Source of the DNA: Paralichthys olivaceus
Taxonomy: Eukaryota; Chordata; Actinopteri; Pleuronectiformes; Paralichthyidae
Assembly (NCBI RefSeq): GCF_024713975.1
Contig: NC_091098.1
Span: 19,277,316-19,341,315 of the forward strand
DNA: 64,000 nucleotides
Direction: 5' to 3'
A program made the translations under genes and the position numbers. The notes beneath the pieces were generated by a model. That model saw only the letters and a program-made list of their open reading frames with translations, was not told where the DNA came from and searched no databases. Shown here piece after piece: positions 2,904-62,900 of this stretch (the first letter of the stretch is position 1; every line of letters begins with the position of its first letter).

Positions 2904-5900
2904 GCGTTTTACTAATTGCCTTATTTTTAAGAATTACTTCAGATTCAAACAACAATATGTGCACATTAGCGTGGCCTGTGAATTAGTGTGTTCTCAGGCC
3001 CCTGCATGAAATTGTGGCTGCTACACATATAGCGTATGTTATCTCCCAAGCAGAAAGGGCAGTGCTCCTCCTGAGGCTAACGCTTCGTTGCACTTCCCCA
3101 TGAAAAGTGCGAGAATCAAAACAGTGGAGCAGACATAATTCACCATCAAAGACTTTTATGGCCGTTTATCTTGTTTATCCTTCATCTCACCTGGGAGGGA
3201 ACTCTCATGTGGAACTCTTGAATGATTTACTGTGACCGGTGCTTCAATGCCTGTGTGAGCATCTCGTGCTGGTCAAACATGTTCTGTGTTTCTCCTCCCG
3301 TGTGTTTCTCCAGAGAGGCCACTCTGAAGGCCGGGGACCGAGTATTGAGCATAGACGGGATGCCTTTAAACAGAGAAAAGCACGCTGACGCTTTGACTAT
3401 GCTGATGCAGAGCGGCCAGGAAGCTCTGTTCCTGATTGAGTATGACGTCTCTGTCATGGGTGAGCACACAAACACAGGGAATATGTGGAGGCATGGTAGG
3501 GCAGCGTTGCTCTGAGGGTAAATAATGTGGCCGTTTGGCTGTGTGGATGCGGGGGGAGTGTCGGTGCTAGAGACGCCACCAGGGGAGTCACTCGGGCCCC
3601 GAGAGCACACTTCAGCAGAGAAAGGGTAGATGGGTGATATCCAGTGTTTTATTATAATGTCTCTCTCCTCTCCTGAATTATAGCAGGTTTAATCTCTGTT
3701 TGTTCTAGAAAATATATTTCTTTTTTCTGTCATTGCAGTGCTTGTCTTTTGTTTTTCAGGCAGACGACTTCCCGGTACATTCGTTTACATGGATATTTTT
3801 TAGTTTGCCTCAGTAAAATAAAACATAATGTGTATCAATAGCTGTGCATTAAAGGACCAGTCCAGAGATTTAGTGTTGCACTTGTAAAGAAGTTGGGTTG
3901 GGAAGTTTTAAAGTTGGGACGATTCATTCAGAATAATTATCAACATTTAAATATCAGAGGTGGTGTCAGCCATTCAGTTTTAGACCCTCGGTTGATCCTA
4001 CAGTTCCCATCATGGATTGGGTGAAATATTCTGAATGTGAGAAAATGTTGATAAATGTACTCGGATGTCAATATATCACTGACAATTATTTGTAATGCAA
4101 TGGAAATGTGAACCTGACCATAGTGGTGTAATGATTGTGTGATGTTCCTGACTATAGACACATCCAGTAATCTTGCCTCCATCACCTCTGTGTGTGTTAT
4201 CCTTTTCAGAGGCGGTGCAGCAGGCCTCAGGCCCTCTGCTGGTGGAGATAGTGAAGGGTCCCTCTGCCAGCCTGGGGATCAGCCTCACCACAACAATATA
4301 CAGGAGCAAACAAGTTATTATCATCGACAAGATAAAGGCAGCGAGTGTGGTGGAGAGGTGAAACCAGGCTCTTGTGTTATACTGTTCCAATGGGAACGTT
4401 CCTGGCTCAGTCTGACTCATGTCTCACTGTCAGGTGCGGAGCGCTGCATGCAGGTGACATCCTCCTGTCCATAGATGGGACCAGCACTGAGCACTGCTCC
4501 CTGATGGAGGCCACGCAGCTACTCGCCAGCACCTCAGATGTCGTCAAACTAGAGATTCTTCCAGCGAGTCAGAGCAGACTTCCTGTCAGGCCACAGGACA
4601 CAGGTACTGTATGTCCTGCAGCTGACACAGAAACACAGCAAACTGTGTGAGACATTACGTCATGTGGCAGAAACTCTCACAGAGAGTCCCAGGGACATTT
4701 TGTGGAAACATCACTTCCAGAGCTCAAGATGACAACTTTACATGACCAGTTTCTGTCTGACAAAACTTAACCCCCCCGCTACATTTAGATTCATTACTTT
4801 ACAGTCGGTTATTTAACATAACTACCAAAGATACTTTTCCTCTTTAAACTTCTCAGTCGGTTAAATTTAAGGGACAGTTTAAAGCCAGATGAGGCAAAAA
4901 AAATGTAATCTAATTTTTCTTTCCCATTAATTATTTGATGACCCTTAGATTTATCTTGTGATCCGTTGGAGGGACTCAAACTGGAAGAAACTCTGGTGTA
5001 GATAATCAATCTTTATATGAAGTTGTTAAAATTAGCTTCTTCTTGTGCAGCCACAACAGTATAGTTCTACTTACACATTATGTATAATCGTATTTCATAG
5101 TATTTCTGTATTTTAATTTTTTTCTGAGCAGTATTTTGGATTTGGACCCTTTTACTTTTAATGGAGTAATTTTATTTTGTTATAATGATAATTTTACATA
5201 TAAAAGGATGTTAGTATTAAAATATGTGTGTAGGTGGGCTGACCATTATAAGGAACACTATACATGGATAGATGGATAAACTTTATTGTCTGTCCCAAAG
5301 TGACAGGGCTCAACAATTCACACTTAAACACAAAGATATAGCACACATCTTAACCAAACAGCAGGAACATAAGAAGGGACTGTTAAAAACAACTACTTAC
5401 AAAACAGGTTAAAATGCAGTGTCTGTTTTATAAAAATACAAATTTGCAGGACAGTGTAATGGTTTTAACACATTTAAATCTTTTGATGTAATTTGTTCTG
5501 TGTAGAAAATCTACAGTAGCAGACTTCAGCTCCAGCATGTTCCCCTCGCCTTATTGTGACTGTTCTGCTCTTAGCTGCATTACCTACAGCCATAAAGAGC
5601 CATGGCTGCCTCCCACATGCCCTCTTCCATGTGAATCAGCCACTGTGTGTGCGTATGTGTGTGCATGCTGCTGGCCACAATCCCCTTACCGTCGCACTTG
5701 ACCTCTTATGCATACCAACAAGATTCACACACATGCAGATACACACACACGCATGCATTCTCTGTCGGATATCATGTTCGTGACATGTTCTGCAGACCTA
5801 TTTGTGGGTCAGCAGCTGCACGAGCTACTTAGCATGTGAGCATGGGAGGAATCATTCTACATGACAAAGAGAAATAAGCTGCAGTTTAACGGGATGACAG

Positions 5901-34688: not shown

Positions 34689-36237
34689 TGTGTGTAGTCC
34701 ACAGTGTGTTGGTGTGTGCTCGGTAAAGTCATGAATTCACTGTGTGATAAAAACACAGGGAGGTGGGAGGAACAATGGGAGACTTGTGATTTGCCAGTTT
34801 TGTGGCCACTTGTGGATTTCACTGCCGTGTCAGACGCCAGATGGACAGGCAGCAGCCTCAGCATTTCTTGAATAGCGGAGCCCGTCTGCAGCTGCTAGAG
34901 ATCCGGTGCCGCGCTTTTTCCTCCCTTTTCATGTAACGTTGCCCATGTGAACATGAGTAAGGGCGTCATGGCAGCTGCTGAGGTTGCTCAGTGCAACAGC
35001 TGTTGCTCAAAAGAAGAGGGGCTGTTCCTCAGAGGAATGACCGGCCCTGGAGTGTCTTAAAAGTAAACTTATGGTGAGAGAACCCCACCCTGACAACTCA
35101 TTCAAGGAGGACATTTATAATATAAAACAAGTGGATCCACACTGCAGCTTCGTGTCAACAAAGACCATCACATACTGTATTGTCATGTGGACCTGTTGTA
35201 TGAGATTGTCCCCATTGTTCGGCAGCTTGACTTATTTATTTATTGATTATCTGTTTCCGTGGTAACCAAGACCTCATCAGTCCATTACACACACCCGATC
35301 TCCCATGCACAGATGACTTTAAACTTTAGAGTACCTTCAAGCATGTGCTCTTTGTATTTTATTATATTTAATGTAAATAGGTCTAATTAAAATCTATATA
35401 TTTATACTTATTTATATGTGTGTGCATGTGTGTATGTAAAACCTCTATGTGAAGCTGACCTCTGCAGTTAAAAAGAATTACTTTTCACTGTCCACGTTTC
35501 TGGGACTCGTTGTTCAGCTCCTGCTTTGTTTTGCTGTTTAATGTTGTTTACACAAAATAAACCACCCTAATAAAGTAAGACTGTTCTGATAACCTGGGGT
35601 GTTGGCCTGAGCACAACACATCTGACTGTTGAATACTGGACTGAAACAGGAAGACAACCAGAGCTTACTTCTCATTCAAATGAGGCTTTTACTCAGCATT
35701 GAATATGCAATAATCTAGTCAGGGGATATTTATGCTGCGATAAACAGCCTCTATTTCTGTGAGTGAATCTATGCAGTGTTAATGTGTTTGGACTGACCAG
35801 TGAAGATGGGGCAGAGCTTGGCCCAGCAGGTGATACCTCCTTCAGAAGTGTACTGGCCCAGTGCAACCTCCAGGAAGAAGACGGGCAGGCCGCCCCCAAA
35901 CAGGAAGATGAAGTAAGGAATGAGAAATGCACCTGGAGAAGAGAAACAGGATCAACTCAGAGTAATCCTAGAGCTGCAGTGAACATGTTTTTAGCTCTTT
36001 GTTTTTACCTCCACCATTTTTATAGCAAAGGTAAGGGAACCGCCAGACGTTTCCTAATCCGACGAAGCCTCCGGCCACAGACAGGACAAAGTCGAGCTTA
36101 CTGGACCATTTCTCCCTCTGAGGAACCTTCCCCTCTGCCTCGTCCTCGGGCCGCGTGCCTGGGCTCTTCCCCGGCGAAGGTTTCAGGGTGTCCTTATGGA
36201 AGTCCTTCAAGCATTGGAGCTTCTCTTTTTGTGCCAT
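25019..36237 (-). CDS. slc6a6: Sodium- and chloride-dependent taurine transporter (SLC6A6/TauT), complete
   Basis: Twelve-helix SLC6-family plasma-membrane symporter that imports taurine (and beta-alanine) with Na+ and Cl-. Coding exons, 5' to 3' on the minus strand: 36237-36009, 35932-35798, 33680-33446, 32938-32806, 32264-32130, 31812-31709, 31568-31444, 30086-29974, 28909-28772, 28364-28262, 26831-26731, 26585-26415, 25174-25019. They total 1878 nt, 625 codons plus stop; human is about 620. The N-terminus [16 protein letters not shown] is nearly the mammalian one. TM1 carries [20 protein letters not shown], the Na+/substrate signature. Extracellular loop 2 has sequons NKT, NIT and NFT and a cysteine pair. 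Late exons give [16 protein letters not shown] and [16 protein letters not shown]. The C-terminus is [12 protein letters not shown]. All introns are GT-AG. The ATG sits just inside an acceptor, so a 5' exon exists (see 38340). The cytosolic C-terminal segment is the part least like the human protein. Confidence 0.97.
25175..26414. other. Last intron of slc6a6
   Basis: Contains the 144-bp periodic repeat at 25430-25765 and otherwise AT-rich sequence without a recognisable gene. Confidence 0.7.
25430..25765. repeat. Tandem repeat of 144-bp period in the last slc6a6 intron
   Basis: The TAGCCTGG(C/T)TGC motif recurs at about 25454, 25598 and 25742, a spacing of 144 bp each time. The block around it (CTAGATGCTAAAGTAGCATG, then ACATGAGAAAATCAATAC) also repeats. 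About 2.3 units are visible. A related shorter-period array lies at 19420-19760. Confidence 0.7.
26832..28261. other. slc6a6 intron between TM10- and TM11-region exons
   Basis: Apart from a decayed interspersed-repeat fragment near 27205-27420, nothing gene-like is visible. Confidence 0.6.
27205..27420. repeat. Decayed interspersed repeat (GTCTGTCTGTC...GGGTCGATC)
   Basis: GTCTGTCTGTCTTTCTGTCA then TTTCTTGAAACTTGATGGTA and CCCATTAAATTTTGGCATTG resemble a widespread fish repeat whose other end seems present at 44560-44690 and 56320-56430. Confidence 0.45.
28910..31443. other. slc6a6 introns around the exon at 29974-30086
   Basis: Two introns of about 1.06 and 1.36 kb. They are AT-rich, with a short CA-type tract near 29330-29360. 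No other gene is seen. Confidence 0.6.
33681..35797. other. slc6a6 intron between coding exons 2 and 3
   Basis: About 2.1 kb. It contains a long (TG)n microsatellite at 34645-34696 and AT-rich sequence; no gene is recognised. Confidence 0.6.
34645..34696. repeat. (TG)n microsatellite
   Basis: Near-perfect TG run in an slc6a6 intron. Confidence 0.9.
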
Positions 36238-37673
36238 GCTGTGGACGGCAGAAAGGAAAATGGAAACATTGATGGAGGGAGACAAAGAGGCAGAGACAGA
36301 GAGAGAGAAAGACAGAGAGACAGAGAGGTGAGAGGGATAAGACGCAGATAGAGAGGAGCATTAGGGAGATAATGCTGTCTCCTGATTGTGTTACAGCTTG
36401 GGTACATGATATACAGCACTATGCTGCTAATCTTGCTAATCTGAAAGACTGCTGCATTGAGGTCATCCAGATTGGAGCAATGATCGGTGGAAACATGGAG
36501 CAAAATCAAGTTGGAAAATGAAAAATATGTGCAAACATATGCTTAAAACCTTGCGATGGTGAGCATTGTTAAAACACAAGCCCAGTCACACACGGTTTTT
36601 GCATTTCACAATTTTCTGGGGCAATCAAACAAGGAGAATACCCACTGTGCTTATTTATCAGTCACAATCAACCAATCAATCAGTTTATAGATAACAGGAC
36701 ATTTTGTTTTCAAGTAAAAACATCTATATACTATATATCATGTGTTTTATTTTGTATTCATGCGGCACAGAAAGTAGTGTGATGCTTCACTCTCAGGGTG
36801 GATTTTTCTGCTCAGAGGGGGGCACATTGTCACTGGAGGAAGAGGAAGGGAATGTTTGGACATGCTGCTGAGACCTGGCCTGAACCTTGGGCAAAGTGTT
36901 TCTTTTCGCTTTCTCTTATGCTACTGTATCAGCAACAGGTCAGCCCTCTGTAATCCAAATTTAGAGGATGAGGGGGTAGATATCCCGTTTGCATTCCCTA
37001 AGCACTTGCCTCACACAGGAAGACGCAACAGCTTTAAGTTCCCAGAGTGTTTACACTGTAAACTGTCTTTCCAAGAAAGACAGGATTTGTTATTACCGGC
37101 CGAGGTGTCCTGTATCCCCCGCTCAAGCCAAAAAGAAACCCTAATAGGACAGGATAAACTATGTGTCAGGAGTGACTGTGATTTAAGCTCCCAGGCTGGG
37201 ACACCATATGGAACACAGGAGAGGACAATGAGAAAGCTCAAATTCATCATACGCTCTAAGATTAGTAGTAATACAAGAGGAAAATATTTCTTTCTTAAAA
37301 GAGAAGTTGGCCGAGCGACTTCAAATATACTCCCCCTTAACTCTTGTGGGCCAATGGAAAAAAAAAAAATCTGACTGCCTTGTTCATTGAAGCTCAGATG
37401 AAAGAACATTTTGTACAGAAAAGTTTCTACCCTGCAAAATATTACAACTCCGCTGAAAACAAAGTGGAAAACTGTGGAATGTGAAAGAAGCAGAAGGAGG
37501 TGAACAGATTTCAGGATGGTAACTTTAGACTTTGAAATAAAATAGTGATGATGCTCATAATAACATCCACCTCTCAGGAGCTGCCATACATGAAGAAACC
37601 TCTCACATTCCTACTGGGAACTGTGTGACTCCTCACTTAATTAACGCACGAACAACAAGCCCTGCATCCCCTG

Positions 37674-49675: not shown

Positions 49676-52600
49676 TCAGCAGTCAATATTAATGCTGGAC
49701 AGCAGTTCCTCTAAGGCCTCCAGCTTCTGATTGGCCTCCTCGATGGCGCTGTACGTCTGTACATTGCTTGTAATGTGGTAGCGAATTTCATCCACCAAGG
49801 GGACGGAGTCGGTCTCGTGACGTTCATCCAGCGATGCGGCGTCCTCTATGATGATCTCGGCAAACTCAGGCTGCTCCACCAGCTGCAAAAGACGGGTACG
49901 ACAAGTCCAAGGATGTGAATTTATCCTCAAACTCATCCTAGAGCTGAGAGAGTTTGAAAACTGGGATCTCACAAACAACTACTCTTGCTCACACCTACAG
50001 TCTCTAATTACCCTTACCCCAGTCTGCATGTATTTGGACTGTGAGAGACAGTTGGAATACCCAGAGAAAACCCACAGATACTTCTGATAAGCAGCTCATA
50101 TCCACACATTATATTGTGTTTAATTTGTCCCAAACCCAGATGCAAAAATTACTATTTGCAGTTTCACAGGGAGTAAAAAACTGAACAATGCATTCTTGAC
50201 CAGACGTAGTAACTTCTCCCCTGCATATAGTCTTAGTGCCAAGCTAATAACCTATGGGCTCTGGCTTCATATTGATCCGAGACGTAGACGCAGACACAAA
50301 CACCTACCCGCTCAATGATCCTGGCCATGAACTCAGTGCATTGATCCTCCAGACGGGAGAGACGGAAAAGCTTGGCCGTCTTCCACAAGTACAGGACGTT
50401 GTCTTCACACATAGTCATACCGAGTGTCTTCCCACACAGACGCTTCAGCCCCGTCAGCAGATACATGTCCGCCACACACAGCACGTCCAACGCGTTCTCC
50501 GTCGTCAGCTGGACATGAAGAACAGATCAGGTGTCAAACAATGAGGCTGAATTTACCTGCAGTATAATTTACATGAATTCTACATTATGTCACAGGTCTG
50601 GAAAAAGAGTAGAGGAGATTTCCAGTTTTTGTAAAACAAATGACCAGCAAGAATGTTTTATAAGTAACATTATTGCTTCTGGCAGAGCAAGTTGTTAACT
50701 TTGCTTTTAATGGTTAGAAGCAACAAATTGATTCGTAAAAGCAGCGTTTCTAGTTTCCCATGTTTTCGTGACTCCTGGGCTCGTAGCCTGAGAAGCAAGT
50801 ATTTCTATTTTTTTTTTTTTAAACAAACTAACCACTGCAAACGTCAGAGTGAAGCTGTTCACCCACCTCTGTGGTATTACTGTAGATGTAATACATGACA
50901 TGGATAAAGACTTCATTGGAAATGTTGTGTAAAGTGATCACTGGAGTGCTGGGCAGCGACGGCAACTGCTCTCCCTCACTGAAGTGATCCTGCAGTAAGG
51001 CTTTAAAGTAGTCACTCCGCCCGGAGAAAAACACCTAGAGACAAACACACACGCACACAATAAATCTATAATGTTCCGTTTTTTTCAAGGGACAGGGTTT
51101 GTTATGTTGTGTGAGTTTGTACCTTATGACACAAGAAATTGTAACCATCCACTCTGAAGCAGATGTCAGGATACGTAGGGAAGTGGTCGACTCTGTTGAA
51201 GGGAAGTTCTCCAAATCCAACCTAGAGAGGAACAACAACAAAAAGCTTGATCAAACTGTCAGATGCTCACAAATATAGTGTGACCATGTTCTTATTCTTT
51301 GCTAAAACGTCCTTACTCTTAGTTCAGTGGGCAGAGCACAGTCTGCTAACTGAGCCATCTCCTCCTGAAGCTGACAGCTCTGAGGCTCCACAGTCAGGAC
51401 TTTCACACAGATTCCTGGCTTGTTGGACACTGAAAAAAACACGGACCCACATCATGCATGCGGAGAAGATCATTTCATGCTGCTGAAAAATGGTCATGAG
51501 TTTAAAAAGTGTCCCAGGACACTGAAGCTATTTTAAAAAGCTCTAGATGAATCACAGTGATAACACACGATGAGTGCGAAGAGTACTGTCTTACCAAAGT
51601 CATACACATGTTTACATTTATTCTCCAGCTCCTCTATGAAATCTGTCATCTTGCACTGTTTAGCAATTCGTCTGCACTCCTCCACAAGGCTTATATCGAT
51701 ATCCATTCCTCCTAAAACATAGAGGAGAGAAACAACAACACTTTTTACAAGTTCAAATTGGCAGCAGGAACTTGTCTGGCTTTGTTTTTTTGTCGTTTTA
51801 CATTTTGTGCACTTGGCATTTTTTGCCTTTTAAAGGTGACAGTGTGATGGTGTAAAATGGGGACCAACTCATTAAAAAATGCTCCACAGAGCAACTAATG
51901 GTCAGAAACTCCATAGGGCACCTTTAAAAACATGAGGGATTCCAGCTGCAGGTTGAAGCCTGTTGCAGCCAGTATAGTTTTATCTGGTGTTGAAAAAGAA
52001 ACTGAGGCATCTACTTCTTAGTCATTTAGGCAAAATACAAAAAGGGCTTTCTCACAAACTAGGCATGGTTACACTTTATTTTTCACACATGAAAAATAGG
52101 ACAGGCGAGATTTTCAAACGAAACAGTGACGTCTGAACTTTTTCCGCTCTTAAACACACCAACCTGTGTAGAAATACTGCAGGATGGCTCCAAAGGCTGC
52201 AGGGTTGATCTGAAATCAAAAACAGCCTTCATGCATATTGATACAGATAATATGACAATATTGTACAATGTAACAGACATGACACTGTAAGAGCAGCACA
52301 GAGGGAATCAATGAGGATATATATGTATATATATATATATATATCTACCAGAGGGTGTTTGAGAGTTATCAAGTTCTTTCCTTTCCATTTGCTCTCAAAC
52401 ATTTCAGTGAAGTACTCGGAGCGGGCGCTGAGTACACAGCGGTGAGCCTGAAATGTCTGACCATGCACCAGGAACTTGACATCACTGTGTTGACCCTGCT
52501 CCAGTAACCTGAGGGCAAAAACAAAACATACAAATGTTTGGATGACATTAATGTCCTCTGTGTGGTCTTGCAGATTTAGGTACAAGCTATAGAGGTAGTA

Positions 52601-54070
52601 TTCTGTGCCTCTGAAACAGCTGAGGAAAATGAACAGCTCTGTAGAGAACAGCTCTTACATGTGCAGGAAGTGGTTGAAATCATCCCGCTGCATAGTGCGG
52701 GCACTGACACACTTGTAATCTTTGAGCAGGCGTCGAACTGAGTCACTCAGGGAGCCGTACAGGCACCTCTCACCATCAAATGTGTTGGCTTCACACTTGG
52801 CACCTGAAAAAGAAAATCTGATTATTCTACAATATTTTTTGGTGCAATTGTAAGAATCAGCAACAAATCCCAGGAAAATAGTTTCAGTATTTAGTCGTTT
52901 ATGTGTAAACATCATTACCACTAGCCAACAGGTACTCGACCAGCTCCTCATGACCACAGAGACAGGCGTAATACCTGGAGAATAATGTACACATTTCAAC
53001 ATAGGATAATGATGCCGTGTTAGGATTTGACTCTTCGCCTAAATTTGTACTTACAGCGGGGTACTGTCCCATTTATCTCTTACATTGAGCTCCACATCTC
53101 TTTGTTCAACGAGGTATCTGACACAGAAAAGAAAAGAAGTGGTGGAAAAGTTACGGTGGTGTACTGTGGTCTATTCAGTCACAACCACAAAAACATTATG
53201 AACCATAAACAATGCCGAAAAGATGTGAATTTATGTTTTACAGAAAAATGGGTTTATTTCCTTAATTTAGTGTCAGTTGGTTGTATGTATGTTCTACTTT
53301 TATTTAAAGCTTTTTATAATTGAGTTTGTGGTTAAACTATAAAATATCAAGCCTCAAATATTATTTACATTTTAGGAATCAATGTAAACTTTAAAACATC
53401 TTTTTAAGTTATTAATATATGTATATATTACATACATGATATCATTAATATATCTGTATCAGAAATCCATGTCAGTCAGGTGCCAACATAACGTCAAACA
53501 ATTGTTCTGTGTTCAGTGGATGTTGCGTCAGGCTAAAGTCTCATATCCTATGTTAATGTGTGAGGTGTGTAAATAAAATGCTTTTTTAAAAATGCATCCC
53601 TTTTTCATGATCATGTTGTGATTAAATATAATTTATTAGTCACCACCCATCAGTATAAAATCCTCCTTCTGTTCTTCTGCACACATTATGTTTGTCACTA
53701 TACATGTAGACTACATTTACTGAAAATACAACTTAGAGTCTCAAAAGTGCCTTTGTTATGCAGATGACACCCAGTTGACAGCTGTCTAACCAATCCTGCC
53801 TCTCTCACACTAAATCCTGGACATCCCACTATTCCCTTCAATAATTGTGGATGTAATAGTTGTTGTTATCATCACTCAGCTGAGGAGCTGACCTACAAAC
53901 GTTGGCTTCAGTTACCAGCTTGGTCATCAGAGCTAATGTTAGCAGGCTGCTCAGCTCCGTCTCTACATGTTGATTCTAACTCATGCAGCTGGTCTCGTGT
54001 TCCGCTGAGGAAACTATATCTGAACAAGATAGCAGCAAAACATGTAAATCCGGTTAGCATTTAGCACGCG

Positions 54071-55746: not shown

Positions 55747-55868
55747 TCATTCCTCTAATTCCATTTTGGCAAGTTTCTGTTTTAATATAGAGATCTGAAG
55801 TTGAAGTTTTTCTTGTGCCAGCAGGAGGTTTTCCTTCTGCAGTCTCAGCACATCGACCTGCAAAGTCT
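55747..55868 (-). CDS. dnase1l4: Last exon of the DNase gene: leucine-zipper-like tail
   Basis: The exon has a strong acceptor (TTTTTCTCCTTGCAG) and stays in frame with the upstream exon (phase 1). It adds ETLQVDVLRLQKENLLLAQE and a further 20 residues ending KMELEE. Assigning heptads puts Leu, Leu, Leu, Leu, Met at successive d positions and Val, Lys, Gln, Ile, Leu at a. The rest is rich in Glu, Lys and Gln, as in a parallel coiled coil. DNase I proteins normally end soon after the SDHYPVEV motif. The segment suggests dimerisation or partner binding, by inference only. Confidence 0.75.
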
Positions 55869-58800
55869 CTGCAAGGAGAAAAACACACAACTGACGATTT
55901 CACAGACACAATTCCCTTCTTCCCTTCTCCGTTCAAAAAAGATTAAAACGGGTAACTAAAGGCAATAAAGATTGATGCACTCATGATTTAGATTTGCAGC
56001 ATGTTACCATTGTTTTTTCTAATAAGAGCACAGTTCATTCCACAGTGTCCAACTAAGTGCTTCAGTGTGTATTGAAAAGCTCCGAATTAGAACAAAATGA
56101 AATATCGCAAGGTGTTACTTCTCGTGACTTTATTATGATGGATTGGATTAAATCTTATCTCAATATAACAGCTCCACATCTGAGCTGATTCAGGCTGACA
56201 TTCATGAGGATTTTCCTGTACATGCTCCAGAATCGATCCAGAAGTAATGTCTAACATGGTAATTTATTGAGCCTGAGGAAACACAGACTCTACAGTTTAT
56301 GTTTCATGTTTAGCAGATGGATATCTATGAGTGAGAAATTTGATGCAGATCCAAATGAAATGAATCTGGTGAATCTAAATGTTGTTTCATAAGGAGACAG
56401 TAAGGCCTGGTCTGAGTTATGTGTTCACTAACATTGACAATAATGCATTAGTGTGATCACTTCATAATTATTATGTGCCTTTGAATGAGAATTCTAAACA
56501 ATTAGGAAAGGTAGAACACAGATAACCTGTAGGGCCCTGTAATACAAAAATAGTTATTACTACCCCCGAGGTGATACCGCTCACATGAGTGGAAAGTCTC
56601 ATCTTTAAAGCAAAAAAGAGACACTCCCCAATTCCAAGCATTCCATCTCACAATTAACATCTCTGCCTTTCACAGAGGCAACACTACAGATGTCATGTCA
56701 AGAAGATGTAAATCAACTCTCGTCTCACTCGCTCCATGTCAGTGGTGAGGAATGTCAGAATGAGTAGATTATAGTGTTGCTCGTTACCTATGACGGTTTT
56801 GTTGACAGATGCGTTCTGGGTATCGACCATGTCACATCTGTGGTCAGTCATCCAGAGAGGTAAAGCGATATGTAGATCTACCTCAACAGGGTAGTGATCG
56901 CTCACTCTCAGGGCCTGCAGGGTGATACAAACTCTGAATTAGTGATATCACCAAAAAACAGGAAAGTAATAGAGGCGCATCACTTGTTGGTTATGAAAAC
57001 ATAAAGTTACCATTTCCTCTGTCATATCAAACGCTGTGTGGAAATTGAACGGCTTGGCTGAATTTGGCACAATAGCAGCCAGCATGTTATCTCCATACAC
57101 TACAATCCTGTTAGAGACATATGTTTATTATATAATTCATTCTGACAATACACCATAAGCCCACTGTTCTTCCGTTCAGAGATAATTATTCCACTACTCT
57201 TTAAAACAAACATCTTTTCTTGAAACTTTACGATGTCCACCTGCCTGTCGTAGGTGTGATCATTTGAAGTATTCGCAGTGGTGTCAACGTCATCCCCAAT
57301 CAGCCAGTGGAACTTCTTGTCACTGCGAATGCGGATGTCCTTCATTTCTTTACGTGTGACATACGCACCATCTGCATTGAAGTCCCCCAGGATCATTATG
57401 TTCTAAAGGAAATCAAGAGCGGTAAAGGTCGTTCTTGGTATATGTTCCATCCTTCTACCATCATGATAATCTGTCCTGTAGATTCTGCGTAACTTTGCTA
57501 AATAACAGTCGGACAAACAGACGAAAACATAACCTCCTTGGTGGAGGCATAAGAACTTCCTGTATAAGGACACATAGAAATCCCACCAGAAGTGAAGTAT
57601 TTGTGTCATGTAACTAGTACGAGTGGAGTAGAAATACATTTATTTATGAATATAGCTTTAGTGTGTACCCGGAACTCATTGATGCACTGCTTTGAGGTGA
57701 ATCAATGAGATGCAGCAGGACGATGTAACTCACATCTGTTTTCCACTTGTCTTTAACCACCAGGACGACCTCGTACAGCTCATCCAGCTCTTTCTCCGAG
57801 TCCCAGGGTCTGGTGTGGACCGGGATCAGCACTATGTCCTCCAGCACTGAGACGAATGCACAGGACAATGTCTCCACTGACATGTCCCATCATGACAAAA
57901 CACTGACTTAACTCTGACTGTCTGAACTTGATCAGCTTGCTGCTGGCTTCTATTCTCATGTCAAACTAGATCCAATCACAAAAACAAACATGACTCAGAC
58001 ATACCAACGACGTCACAGCAGCAATACTGTTCACAGAAACTCTGGTAGAATGACTCCCTGTTAAACTGACCTGTGTTGTGTGGTTTGAAGTGGAGAATGT
58101 ATGGCTCTCTGGCAAAAACATCCATGTCGTTGACCTGGTTGTCTTCATATTGATAGCAGTCAATCAAGTTGACCACATCATCCCTTCCAGTGGGAGAAGA
58201 TGCGTTTAATGCAGATGTTCAATGGTTACACTGAGGGAGTCTTATCGTCAAGAAAAAAGATCTTAATTCACCTGAAGAGAAATAAAAATTGTTCCTTGTA
58301 TCTGGTCCTTCCCAGGCGGGTGCTGAGCTGCAGGGAGTAGTGATGGCTTGTGTTGACCCTGCACGTGAGATTAGGATACAGTACACACAGTAAACACCGA
58401 CATCTACAGTGTTTGCTTCTTTCAGAAAAAAAAAGTCAACTCACCTGTTCAGTTCGTTCAGGAACAGTTTGACAGAATCTCCACTCACATCCACAACCTC
58501 CAGAATGAGGATGATGTCGTATCGAGACACAATCTAATACAACAGAGGTAAGTACAAGTCTGCAACGTAAAAGTTATGAGGAAGCACATTTCAGTCTTAA
58601 GTATGAAATCATGAGGAAACAGATATTATCCCTTGGGGCATATTTGGGATTGTTTCTGCAGCTAACCTGATTACACCTTTAGCAATTTATTTTCAATGAA
58701 TTAACTTCTTATCCTTTGTTCCTCACACCGCCTCATCAAAGCTCTTTGGCTGCCTCTCAAAACTAAACCCTTTATTAATTATTACTCATCTGAAATTGTG

Positions 58801-58965
58801 CTCTGTTTTGTTGCCTGATAAATCACAGCAGAAATCAGCCTCCTCACAATTTACTGTGCCGCAAACAATGAAAACACATTTCACCTTAACCAGAGTCGAC
58901 ACCACATCTGGATCTGAGACCTTCGCCTGTCCAAACCTCTGCACGTTGAATGAAGCTATCTTCAT
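55747..58965 (-). CDS. dnase1l4: DNase I-family endonuclease, dnase1l4-like, with coiled-coil C-terminal tail
   Basis: Mg2+/Ca2+-dependent DNase I-fold endonuclease. Coding exons 5' to 3' on the minus strand: 58965-58885, 58533-58445, 58358-58272, 58183-58071, 57846-57734, 57402-57245, 57107-57011, 56914-56788, 55868-55747. They total 987 nt, 328 codons plus stop. Visible family motifs: MKIASFNVQRFG (Asn of the metal site), ILILEVVD (catalytic Glu), IPVHTRP (first catalytic His), LGDFNADG (Asp/Asn), SNDHTYDRIVV (Asp) and SDHYPVEV (Asp-His, second catalytic His). The start is the first ATG after acceptor TTGTCAG and leaves no signal peptide. The cysteines that form the DNase I disulfide after GDFNAD and before YDR are Gly and His here. 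The intron after 57245 needs a GC donor. The last two exons run about 60 residues past the usual end and finish in a leucine-zipper-like segment. Subfamily naming is from memory and less certain than the family. Confidence 0.88.
56320..56430. repeat. Interspersed-repeat fragment, copy B
   Basis: TGATGCAGATCCAAATGAAA then TTGTTTCATAAGGAGACAGT, aligning with copy A at 44560-44690. It lies in the last DNase intron. Confidence 0.5.
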
Positions 58966-59900: not shown

Positions 59901-59992
59901 ACACCCAAGAGATAAGAGATGCACAACCGAGCTCGACCACTGCCTGACATCTTCATCTTCCCCGTCAGTGAGATCTCCCCAGAAGCGCCACC

Positions 59993-62900
59993 ATGAGTCT
60001 GAGGAGAAACCCCAACAGCCGCCCAGGAGTGCGCTCGTCCTCTAAGAGCTTCAGCAGCTCGTCCATGGGATCCTACTCCTTCCACAGGATCAGCACCGGT
60101 ACTGAGCAGAGGGCCCCGATCACAGCTGTGACTGTCAACAAGAGCCTGCTCGCCCCATTGAGCATCGATATCGACCCCACCATCCAGGTAGTCCGCACCC
60201 AGGAGAAAGAGCAGATCAAGACCCTCAACAACCGCTTTGCCTCATTCATTGACAAGGTGAGAAACAGGATTGCAGATAAATGATGAGAGTGAGATTCCAT
60301 TTTTTTTTTTGGGATTATCCCGCTATCCATTTAAATACATATAGAATATAGAATAAGTGAGGGCCAGTTTTATATTGTGGGTCCTTACTCCCCTTGTCAC
60401 AGGTGAGATTCCTGGAGCAGCAGAACAAAATGCTGGAAACCAAGTGGCAGCTGCTGCAGAAACAGACATCCACCCCCTCCAACATTGAGCCCATGCTGAA
60501 GTCCTTCATCGGCTCCCTGGAGAGACAGCTGGAGTGCTTCAACAATGAAAAACTAAGGCTTGACATGGAGAACAATGTCATGCACAAAAATGTTGAGGAC
60601 TATAAGACGAGGTAGGACTGAAGCACCTGCTGTTGAGTCAGTAAAAATTAGGTGTGAAGATGTGCAGGGGAAATATGACCTGTGGCGTGTTTCAGGTACG
60701 AGGAGGAAATCAACAGGAGAAATGATGCTGAGAACGACTTTGTCATGCTCAAAAAGGTAGAGTATAGAGTCATGGTGGCTATGATTGATGTTTTCTCAGT
60801 GTGTGCAAGTTTAATGCTTATGAGTGTTCAAAGATTCATTCATCTCTAATGCATGAAATATAACTGCGTCTTTCATAAAGTCATGCACTAAAGTTGTATG
60901 TTTTTCACTGAATGCCTGCAGGATGTGGATTCAAGTTTTCTGTCTCAGGTGGATCTGAACGACAGGTTGTCTGGTATCCAGGATGAACACAACTTCCTCA
61001 AGGAGCTGTATGATACGGTATTGAAAATCCTTTCAAAATGTCAGACAGTATTAAAATAGGAAAACATGTAAACCACAGGTGTTGAACTGTGGATTATGTC
61101 TCCTCACTGCGGCTGTCTGTCGTTTTATAAAAGGAGCTGCGGGAGATGCAGGAGAGCCTGAGGACGACCTCTGTGGTGGTGCAGATGGACAACTCCCGCG
61201 GCCTGAACATGGATCAGATCGTGGCTGATGTTAAGGCTCAGTACGAAGATATCGCCGGCCGCAGTCGTGAGGAAGCTGAAAGCTGGTACAAGAACAAGGT
61301 GAAGTACTCAAGCAGAAAAATGATACACCACTGTTAATGTCATGCAATTTTGTGGTAAAACAGGTTTCTCTTGAAATAGTTTAGTAAATGAGGGGGTCAT
61401 TATTTAGGTCAAGCTCATAAATCTACTACACAGGGGACTCTTGTCAAACCTGATGATTACTGATCTAACACCTTTGTTCCTGTTTGGTACCAGTTTGACA
61501 AGATTAATGCTGAGGCGGAACAGTACAGCAATGAAATGCATAGCAACAAGGGAGAAATATCTGGACTCAACCGAATGATCAGCCGCCTGCAGAATGAGAT
61601 CCAGACTGTAAAAGCACAGGTGAGTGAAATGTTGAAAGTCAAAGGCAGCTGAAAAATGCTGTTGGAGGTTATACTCTTCCATCTCAACTGTGATCTCTTC
61701 TAGCTTATGTATAAATACTTTAAACATTGCCACACTTCTCCATCACGTTAAAAACTGCTTCTTTTAATCAATGTTGTAAATACTGTAATCAAGATCAACA
61801 AATTATTCTTTGGGAAAAATGTGAAAATGCCTCATTTAAAGTGAAAAACTGGTCAGAACTGCTTGTAGTAGGATGGCAGAAATAAATGACCAAAAAAGTA
61901 TGACACACACAGGATCCGTTATTACAGTTGTTCTGTTGAGGTTTGTCTGTCTGACATTCTGTCTATATACTTAACATCAACTCTTTATATTATGAAATCA
62001 TAGCTTGCAGCCTCTAAATGTTTTGCTCTATGTGTCACAATCCACATTACAAAGGGACATGACATCGTGGAATGGTCTCATCTGCTTTGAAAGGAGTGAT
62101 TGACAGGCTTACACCATCTATCCCTGCACATTATTTCTCAGTGTGTCAGTCTGGAGGACCAGTTCTCTGAGGCAGAGCGGCGCGGGGAGGAAGCCGTGCA
62201 GGATGCCAGGGCTCGCATCAAGGACCTGGAGCTGGCTCTGCAGAAGGCCAAACAGGACATGGCTCGCCAGCTGAAAGAATACCAGGAGCTCATGAATATC
62301 AAGCTGGGCCTGGACATCGAGATCTCCACCTACAGGAAACTGCTGGAGGGAGAGGAGGAAAGGTGAGTGGTGCGGGTAGATGTCAGATTAGAGTCTAATG
62401 CAGGTTTTTCTGGAAAAGTTTCAAAAGGATATATTTGGCTCAACTCTCCACTTTCACTTTTAAAGAAAAGCTTAACATGGTCTGACCCCCTGTTACGGAT
62501 ATAATAACATCCCTTGCTCCAAACTGTAATCTATGACTTCAAAAGGATTTTGCCAGCATGGCCCCAGAGGCTCTGGAATTCCTTGTCTGAGGAGATCAGA
62601 CTTGCCATAACTTGAACTGTCTTGTAAATCATTGCTCAAAACATTTGGAAAACCTTTTAATGCCTGGTTCTTAAGTGTTTTCAATTTCATGTTTTGACCT
62701 GTTTCATTCTGTTCTGTTTTACTCCCATGTGTTTTGGAAAGCACTTTGTAACTTTGCTTTGATAGGTGCTTCATAATTAAAGTTTATTATTTGTATTATT
62801 ATTATTTATAGTCATGATTCAGCTTCAGTTGATCAGATTGTGCTTCTGTATATCTGCTATCTGGTAACATGTGGTCAGAACCTTCTGCCTTAATGAAGAG

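Follow-up and report, generated by a model that had tools for sequence, protein, structure and literature searches.

Two questions are raised by the DNase I-family gene studied here: whether the nuclease carries an additional, leucine-rich C-terminal exon of its own, and what such an end might do on an endonuclease. The gene was analysed within a stretch of 64,000 bases, referred to as the window (C6:19277316-19341315), of a fish genome of 588,085,608 bases in 25 contigs. It lies on the minus strand, where nine coding exons between 58965 and 55747 join in frame to give a protein of 328 residues:

58885 to 58965, minus strand: exon 1, coding, starting with MKIASFNV, with an acceptor-like CAG two bases before the ATG
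58445 to 58533, minus strand: exon 2, coding, holding ILEVVD
58272 to 58358, minus strand: exon 3, coding, holding YKEQ
58071 to 58183, minus strand: exon 4, coding
57734 to 57846, minus strand: exon 5, coding, holding PVHTRP
57245 to 57402, minus strand: exon 6, coding, holding GDFNADG, with a GC donor
57011 to 57107, minus strand: exon 7, coding, holding RIVVYGD
56788 to 56914, minus strand: exon 8, coding, entered in phase 0, with SDHYPVEV followed by 30 residues without a basic cluster; donor TAG/GTAACG
55869 to 56787, minus strand: last intron, phase 1, preceding the tail, with AATAAA at 56268 and 56134
55747 to 55868, minus strand: exon 9 (terminal), entered in phase 1, encoding ETLQVDVLRLQKENLLLAQEKLQLQISILKQKLAKMELEE and then a stop; the leucine-rich helical tail

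Apart from the GC donor of exon 6 (57245), the introns of the coding part, seven in number, begin with GT. Head to head with the DNase gene, on the plus strand, is a keratin-like gene at 59972-62400, its extent and its type (keratin) being our assumption; Pfam Filament is matched for 60361-60612.

Residues 1-260 align end to end with DNase gamma (7kiu, E 7e-73) and with DNase I (1atn, E 7.6e-70) in phmmer comparisons, and Pfam PF03372 (Exo_endo_phos) matches residues 4-253 (E 5.8e-16). The homology spans the whole catalytic core, which by sequence places the gene in the DNase I family. The motifs ILEVVD, YKEQ, PVHT, GDFNAD, YDRIVV and SDHYPVEV are all present. In the alignment to 7kiu and DNase I, the Glu, His, Asp, Asn and Asp-His motifs which we take to be catalytic are kept; the catalytic Glu is presumably that of ILEVVD, a second catalytic Glu that of YKEQ, and the catalytic His that of PVHTRP. 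The positions of C173 and C209 in DNase I are occupied by Gly and His (GDFNADG, DHTYDR). No match was obtained when the viral contigs were searched with the DNase protein.

The gene has an extra in-frame leucine-rich C-terminal exon. As a preliminary description of the locus had proposed, the last two exons are joined in frame at canonical sites (the exon 8 donor given above and the acceptor TTCTCCTTGCAG), and the heptad stripe of L, L, L, L and M that it had read in the tail is borne out. The protein continues for 70 residues past SDHYPVEV, 30 in exon 8 and 40 in exon 9, instead of the 60 or so given there. The exon 8 donor is moderate, scoring 6.2 bits with a donor matrix, a value reached by 277 of the 7749 GT sites in the window; within 56914-55870, three of 59 GT sites outscore it. 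Seven frame-compatible acceptors were listed downstream, and the richest of them in pyrimidines (13 of 15) is that at 55868. As regards other phase-1 terminal exons in or behind the last intron, these seven acceptors open one long frame besides the tail (56 residues behind 54518).

Among 263 terminal-exon-like frames in the window, the tail exon is the single one with five L/M in heptad register. By coiled-coil score it ranks third; the two frames above it and the one below lie at 60403-62142 on the plus strand, in the keratin-like gene. Part of this score is composition, since shuffles of the tail residues can reach the observed values: the coil score in 170 of 1000 and, among 20000 shuffles, the stripe of five L/M in 1.2% and the hydrophobic a/d fraction in 12%. 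That composition alone can produce such a score would favour the reading that both the open frame and its acceptor arose by chance, which we find scarcely credible against the homologous exon, in the same place and phase, of a paralogous gene. On sequence grounds, it is this second exon that gives the tail exon its main support.

The paralogue was found by searching the genome with the 40-residue tail (E up to 10). Scoring in these protein searches is confined to the best first-look candidates, which means that weak or distant relatives could be missed; among the scored candidates two matches were obtained, the tail itself and C2:3928503-3928604 (59% over 34 residues, E 1.3e-4). A search of the genome with the DNase core identified the latter as the 3′ end of a second DNase gene. 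This contig 2 paralogue has nine exons and encodes 327 residues; its intron phases are identical to those of the window gene, the last intron being of phase 1 with its junction at 3928913/3928657, and its last exon comprises 173 bases. In the core, 181 of 260 residues are identical between the two proteins. The paralogue tail DLLELKRGNLLLEREKLQLEIQILQQKMAKM aligns without gaps to DVLRLQKENLLLAQEKLQLQISILKQKLAKM of the window tail, with 20 of 31 residues identical, and the reverse search with the paralogue exon found two places among the scored candidates, itself and the window exon (E 1.8e-3). That a second DNase gene of the genome has the same tail argues that the tail is real and old, not a chance reading; as both paralogues have exon 9, the tail exon predates the split of the two genes. 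The paralogue also has Gly and His at the positions of C173 and C209 (GDFNADG, NHTYDR). Each of the two genes has one GC donor, at 57245 in the window and at C2:3930487, in different introns.

The linkers between SDHYPVEV and the shared segment, 35 and 32 residues long, align poorly. Within the shared 31 residues, all 13 hydrophobic columns stay hydrophobic and 11 of them are identical, compared with nine identical among the 18 polar columns, a contrast in identity that is merely suggestive (Fisher P 0.066). Over the 31 codons there are 9 base differences at first, 6 at second and 16 at third codon positions, the third-position excess having P 0.027. By the NG86 method, dN is 0.36 and dS 3.3 for 35 tail codons, and dN is 0.21 and dS 1.56 for the core; dS is saturated, and the ratios are rough.

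The DNA of the tail exon has one match in the 588 Mb genome, which is itself, and the tail protein matches the two DNase genes among the scored candidates of its own genome. The multiple copies that a transposon-derived repeat would show were not found; a possible transposon origin had been put forward in the preliminary description. What spoke for a captured transposon or repeat fragment was a likeness to segments of other fish proteins, asserted there without a search and finding no support in the fish's own genome. Given the match counts, the absence of a Pfam match for either tail and of NCBIfam and PADLOC matches for the window tail, we regard such a fragment as very improbable; the exon could still derive from an element, captured long ago, that has since disappeared. 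A further proposal, that exon capture had added a dimerisation or targeting module, stands as far as the extra exon is concerned. The exon is not unique to the window gene, and its capture, if there was one, predates the gene split: the exon may have been captured from elsewhere before the two genes separated. The neighbouring keratin-like gene was considered as a source and rejected, as BLASTP of linker plus tail against four stretches gave no match at E up to 100.

The surroundings of the two genes were compared over about 134 kb at the window gene and 30 kb at the contig 2 gene, and among neighbours common to both only the DNase exons matched. An origin of the pair by whole-genome duplication is possible, being neither shown nor excluded by this comparison. 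No tandem DNase copy was found in the window, nor in the flanks searched at E up to 1, which covered about 20 kb on the left and 50 kb on the right.

Modelled alone, the exon is predicted to form one helix over 39 of its 40 residues with a mean pLDDT of 97, a single-chain result, modelled without related sequences, that says nothing on partners. With a coiled-coil matrix, the coil probability is 0.96 for the window tail and 0.996 for the paralogue tail. Both share the d-position stripe LLLLM, with Leu at d over four heptads, in the window tail within the predicted helix; the a positions are K, Q, I and L in the window tail and R, R, I and M in the paralogue tail. Instead of a single hydrophobic face with hydrophobic a positions, there are leucines on several faces, in the two stripes LLLLM and LLLQ, and the hydrophobic moment is unremarkable, being reached by 1033 and 3811 of 5000 shuffles of the two tails. 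For these two reasons the tail is not a textbook two-stranded zipper, and a coil score that composition can reach by itself in 17% of shuffles also speaks against a simple zipper. The net charge is −1 for residues 261-288 and −1 for the tail. Searches of the PDB with the tail and with a two-tail profile gave nothing below E 8.

From the intact core motifs, the tail exon and its phase, its homology to the paralogue exon, the conserved hydrophobic residues and the helix prediction we infer, with a probability of roughly 60%, that the gene is one of two DNase1L4-type paralogues whose product, with no convincing signal-peptide exon and without the C173-C209 disulphide, is probably cytosolic or nuclear and ends in a helix exon for protein-protein interaction, self-association being the likeliest form. 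The leucine-rich helix of about 31 residues, which both paralogues carry behind a variable linker, would then most likely associate into a coiled coil. This could bear on DNA cutting by putting two or more nuclease domains on one DNA, in the manner of CAD/DFF40, an intracellular nuclease that is a dimer when active; the fold of CAD is unrelated to that of DNase I, and the analogy is confined to the proposed mechanism. Alternatively, the helix may dock the nuclease on a binding partner. The tail could also form a trimer or larger bundle, bind another protein or pack on the nuclease.

Less probable than self-association, and still to be reckoned with, is an intramolecular or targeting element, in which the helix, instead of associating with itself, packs on the nuclease, for instance as a lid that inhibits it, or binds another protein. 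The presence of leucines on more than one face and the ordinary hydrophobic moment, features of both paralogues, are consistent with such an element, and the variable linker would allow packing or docking; against it, the coil scores of the tails lie among the values that keratin rod stretches of this window give.

The tail might also be one of two alternative ends, if intronic polyadenylation produced a DNase without the helix (end GNEQHYNLLILTFLTTDMERVRRELIYIFLT) and splicing the tailed form, the choice between them regulating the enzyme. Besides the moderate exon 8 donor, this is suggested by the two AATAAA of the last intron, as none follows the tail stop over about 1.3 kb, to 54400, where only TATAAA, CATAAA and GATAAA occur; an ATTAAA lies inside the tail exon. 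Read-through of exon 8 into the last intron would add 31 residues, with a stop by 56693. AATAAA also occurs in the last intron of the paralogue and again 285 bases after the tail stop there, and read-through of the paralogue's exon 8 meets a stop after four codons. The intronic AATAAA are weak evidence, however, since equal numbers arise in 281 of 2000 shuffles of the window intron and in 602 of 2000 of the paralogue intron. We consider regulated alternative ends doubtful; either gene may still make a shorter isoform that lacks the tail.

The nuclease core begins at the first Met in both tailed genes. The acceptor-like CAG ahead of the exon 1 ATG makes a further 5′ exon likely upstream of the window gene. 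Eight frame-compatible hydrophobic pieces occur there (61500-58969), with poor donors or antisense to the keratin-like gene, and none of them is convincing as a signal-peptide exon. Upstream of the paralogue, at a distance of about 1.9 kb, one hydrophobic piece has a fair donor and was neither accepted nor excluded; either gene may possess a signal-peptide exon.

Compared with solved relatives, the window protein shares the core fold and catalytic motifs of DNase I (1atn, 1dnk), the solved chains of which, unlike it, go no further than the SDHYPVEV stretch and have both cysteines. DNASE1L3 (DNase gamma, 7kiu) is the closest solved relative of the core; we know of no helix exon in that gene. 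DNASE1L3 differs from the window DNase in its cysteine pairs and its basic C-terminal peptide, both described, along with a signal peptide, in the main text of PMC9208542.

Both tailed genes are probably DNase1L4-type, to judge from the missing C173/C209 pair that is expected of this group according to the same text. There, the DNase1L4 group is characterized by absence of the conserved cysteine pair, absence of a signal peptide and a basic C-terminal peptide in most members, exceptions being allowed; the text also calls C173-C209 common to all family members, so that its wording is not quite consistent. The DNase1L4 and DNase1L4-2 orthogroups of PMC9208542 resemble the present genes, two of this type having been found in the fish genome, in the DNase I core, in the absence of the cysteine pair and possibly in lacking a signal peptide, no convincing exon for one having been identified. 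They differ at the C-terminus, where theirs is a basic peptide, with exceptions, and the present one a leucine-rich helix on its own exon; neither tailed gene encodes a basic C-terminal peptide. The main text of PMC9208542 contains none of the words coiled, leucine and zipper, and among the titles listed in our literature searches none dealt with a fish relative of DNase I bearing a zipper or coiled coil.

In that account, the termini of vertebrate DNase I relatives vary, with a GPI anchor, a basic peptide or an SMB domain, in step with the function of each enzyme (PMC9208542). For a DNase I relative that is apparently intracellular, a conserved helix exon would be a further kind of end. More tentatively, and as a generalization we think less likely than not, the DNase1L4 proteins of ray-finned fish may be intracellular DNases that have traded signal peptide, disulphide and basic tail for an oligomerising C-terminal helix common to both paralogues, possibly removed by intronic polyadenylation. 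If true, the enzyme would act as an assembled cytosolic or nuclear DNA cutter and represent an overlooked class. For zebrafish dnase1l4.1, a passage of PMC9341505 places a blood TSS in a Polinton element. A passage of PMC9203529 lists the gene as lowered in gill under hypoxia, beside isg15 and irf1b, which may be a hint at an interferon link, on which the passage itself is silent; the gene also appears in a gene list of PMC9748118.

The search of the genome with the DNase core gave 29 matches at E up to 0.01. Further DNase loci are situated at C6:13.82 Mb, C6:26.91 Mb, C6:3.77-3.80 Mb (three copies) and C5:1.47 Mb, which makes six copies when the three at C6:3.77-3.80 Mb are counted singly and a partial inverted fourth is left out. 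In all six, reading on in frame from SDHYPVEV or its variant meets a stop no more than 37 residues later, and both exon 6 cysteines are kept. Their C-terminal ends show HEL in one copy, a hydrophobic stretch in four and ARARSA in one. The whole-genome tail search gave no match at these six copies among the scored candidates; a further spliced exon is possible in them. The array at C6:3767954-3802100 looks like a recent local amplification: its three DNase I-family genes, spaced by about 14 kb, closely resemble one another, and the partial fourth copy is inverted.

A search of the genome for the Exo_endo_phos family yielded 150 scored matches of 878 candidates. Many are presumably retrotransposon endonucleases, since they fall within open frames of the expected length, about 1000-1300 codons. 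Elsewhere in the window, we noted exons of a PDZ protein (4336-4647), of an SNF-type neurotransmitter symporter (35971-36360) and of a BTB protein (52232-52654).
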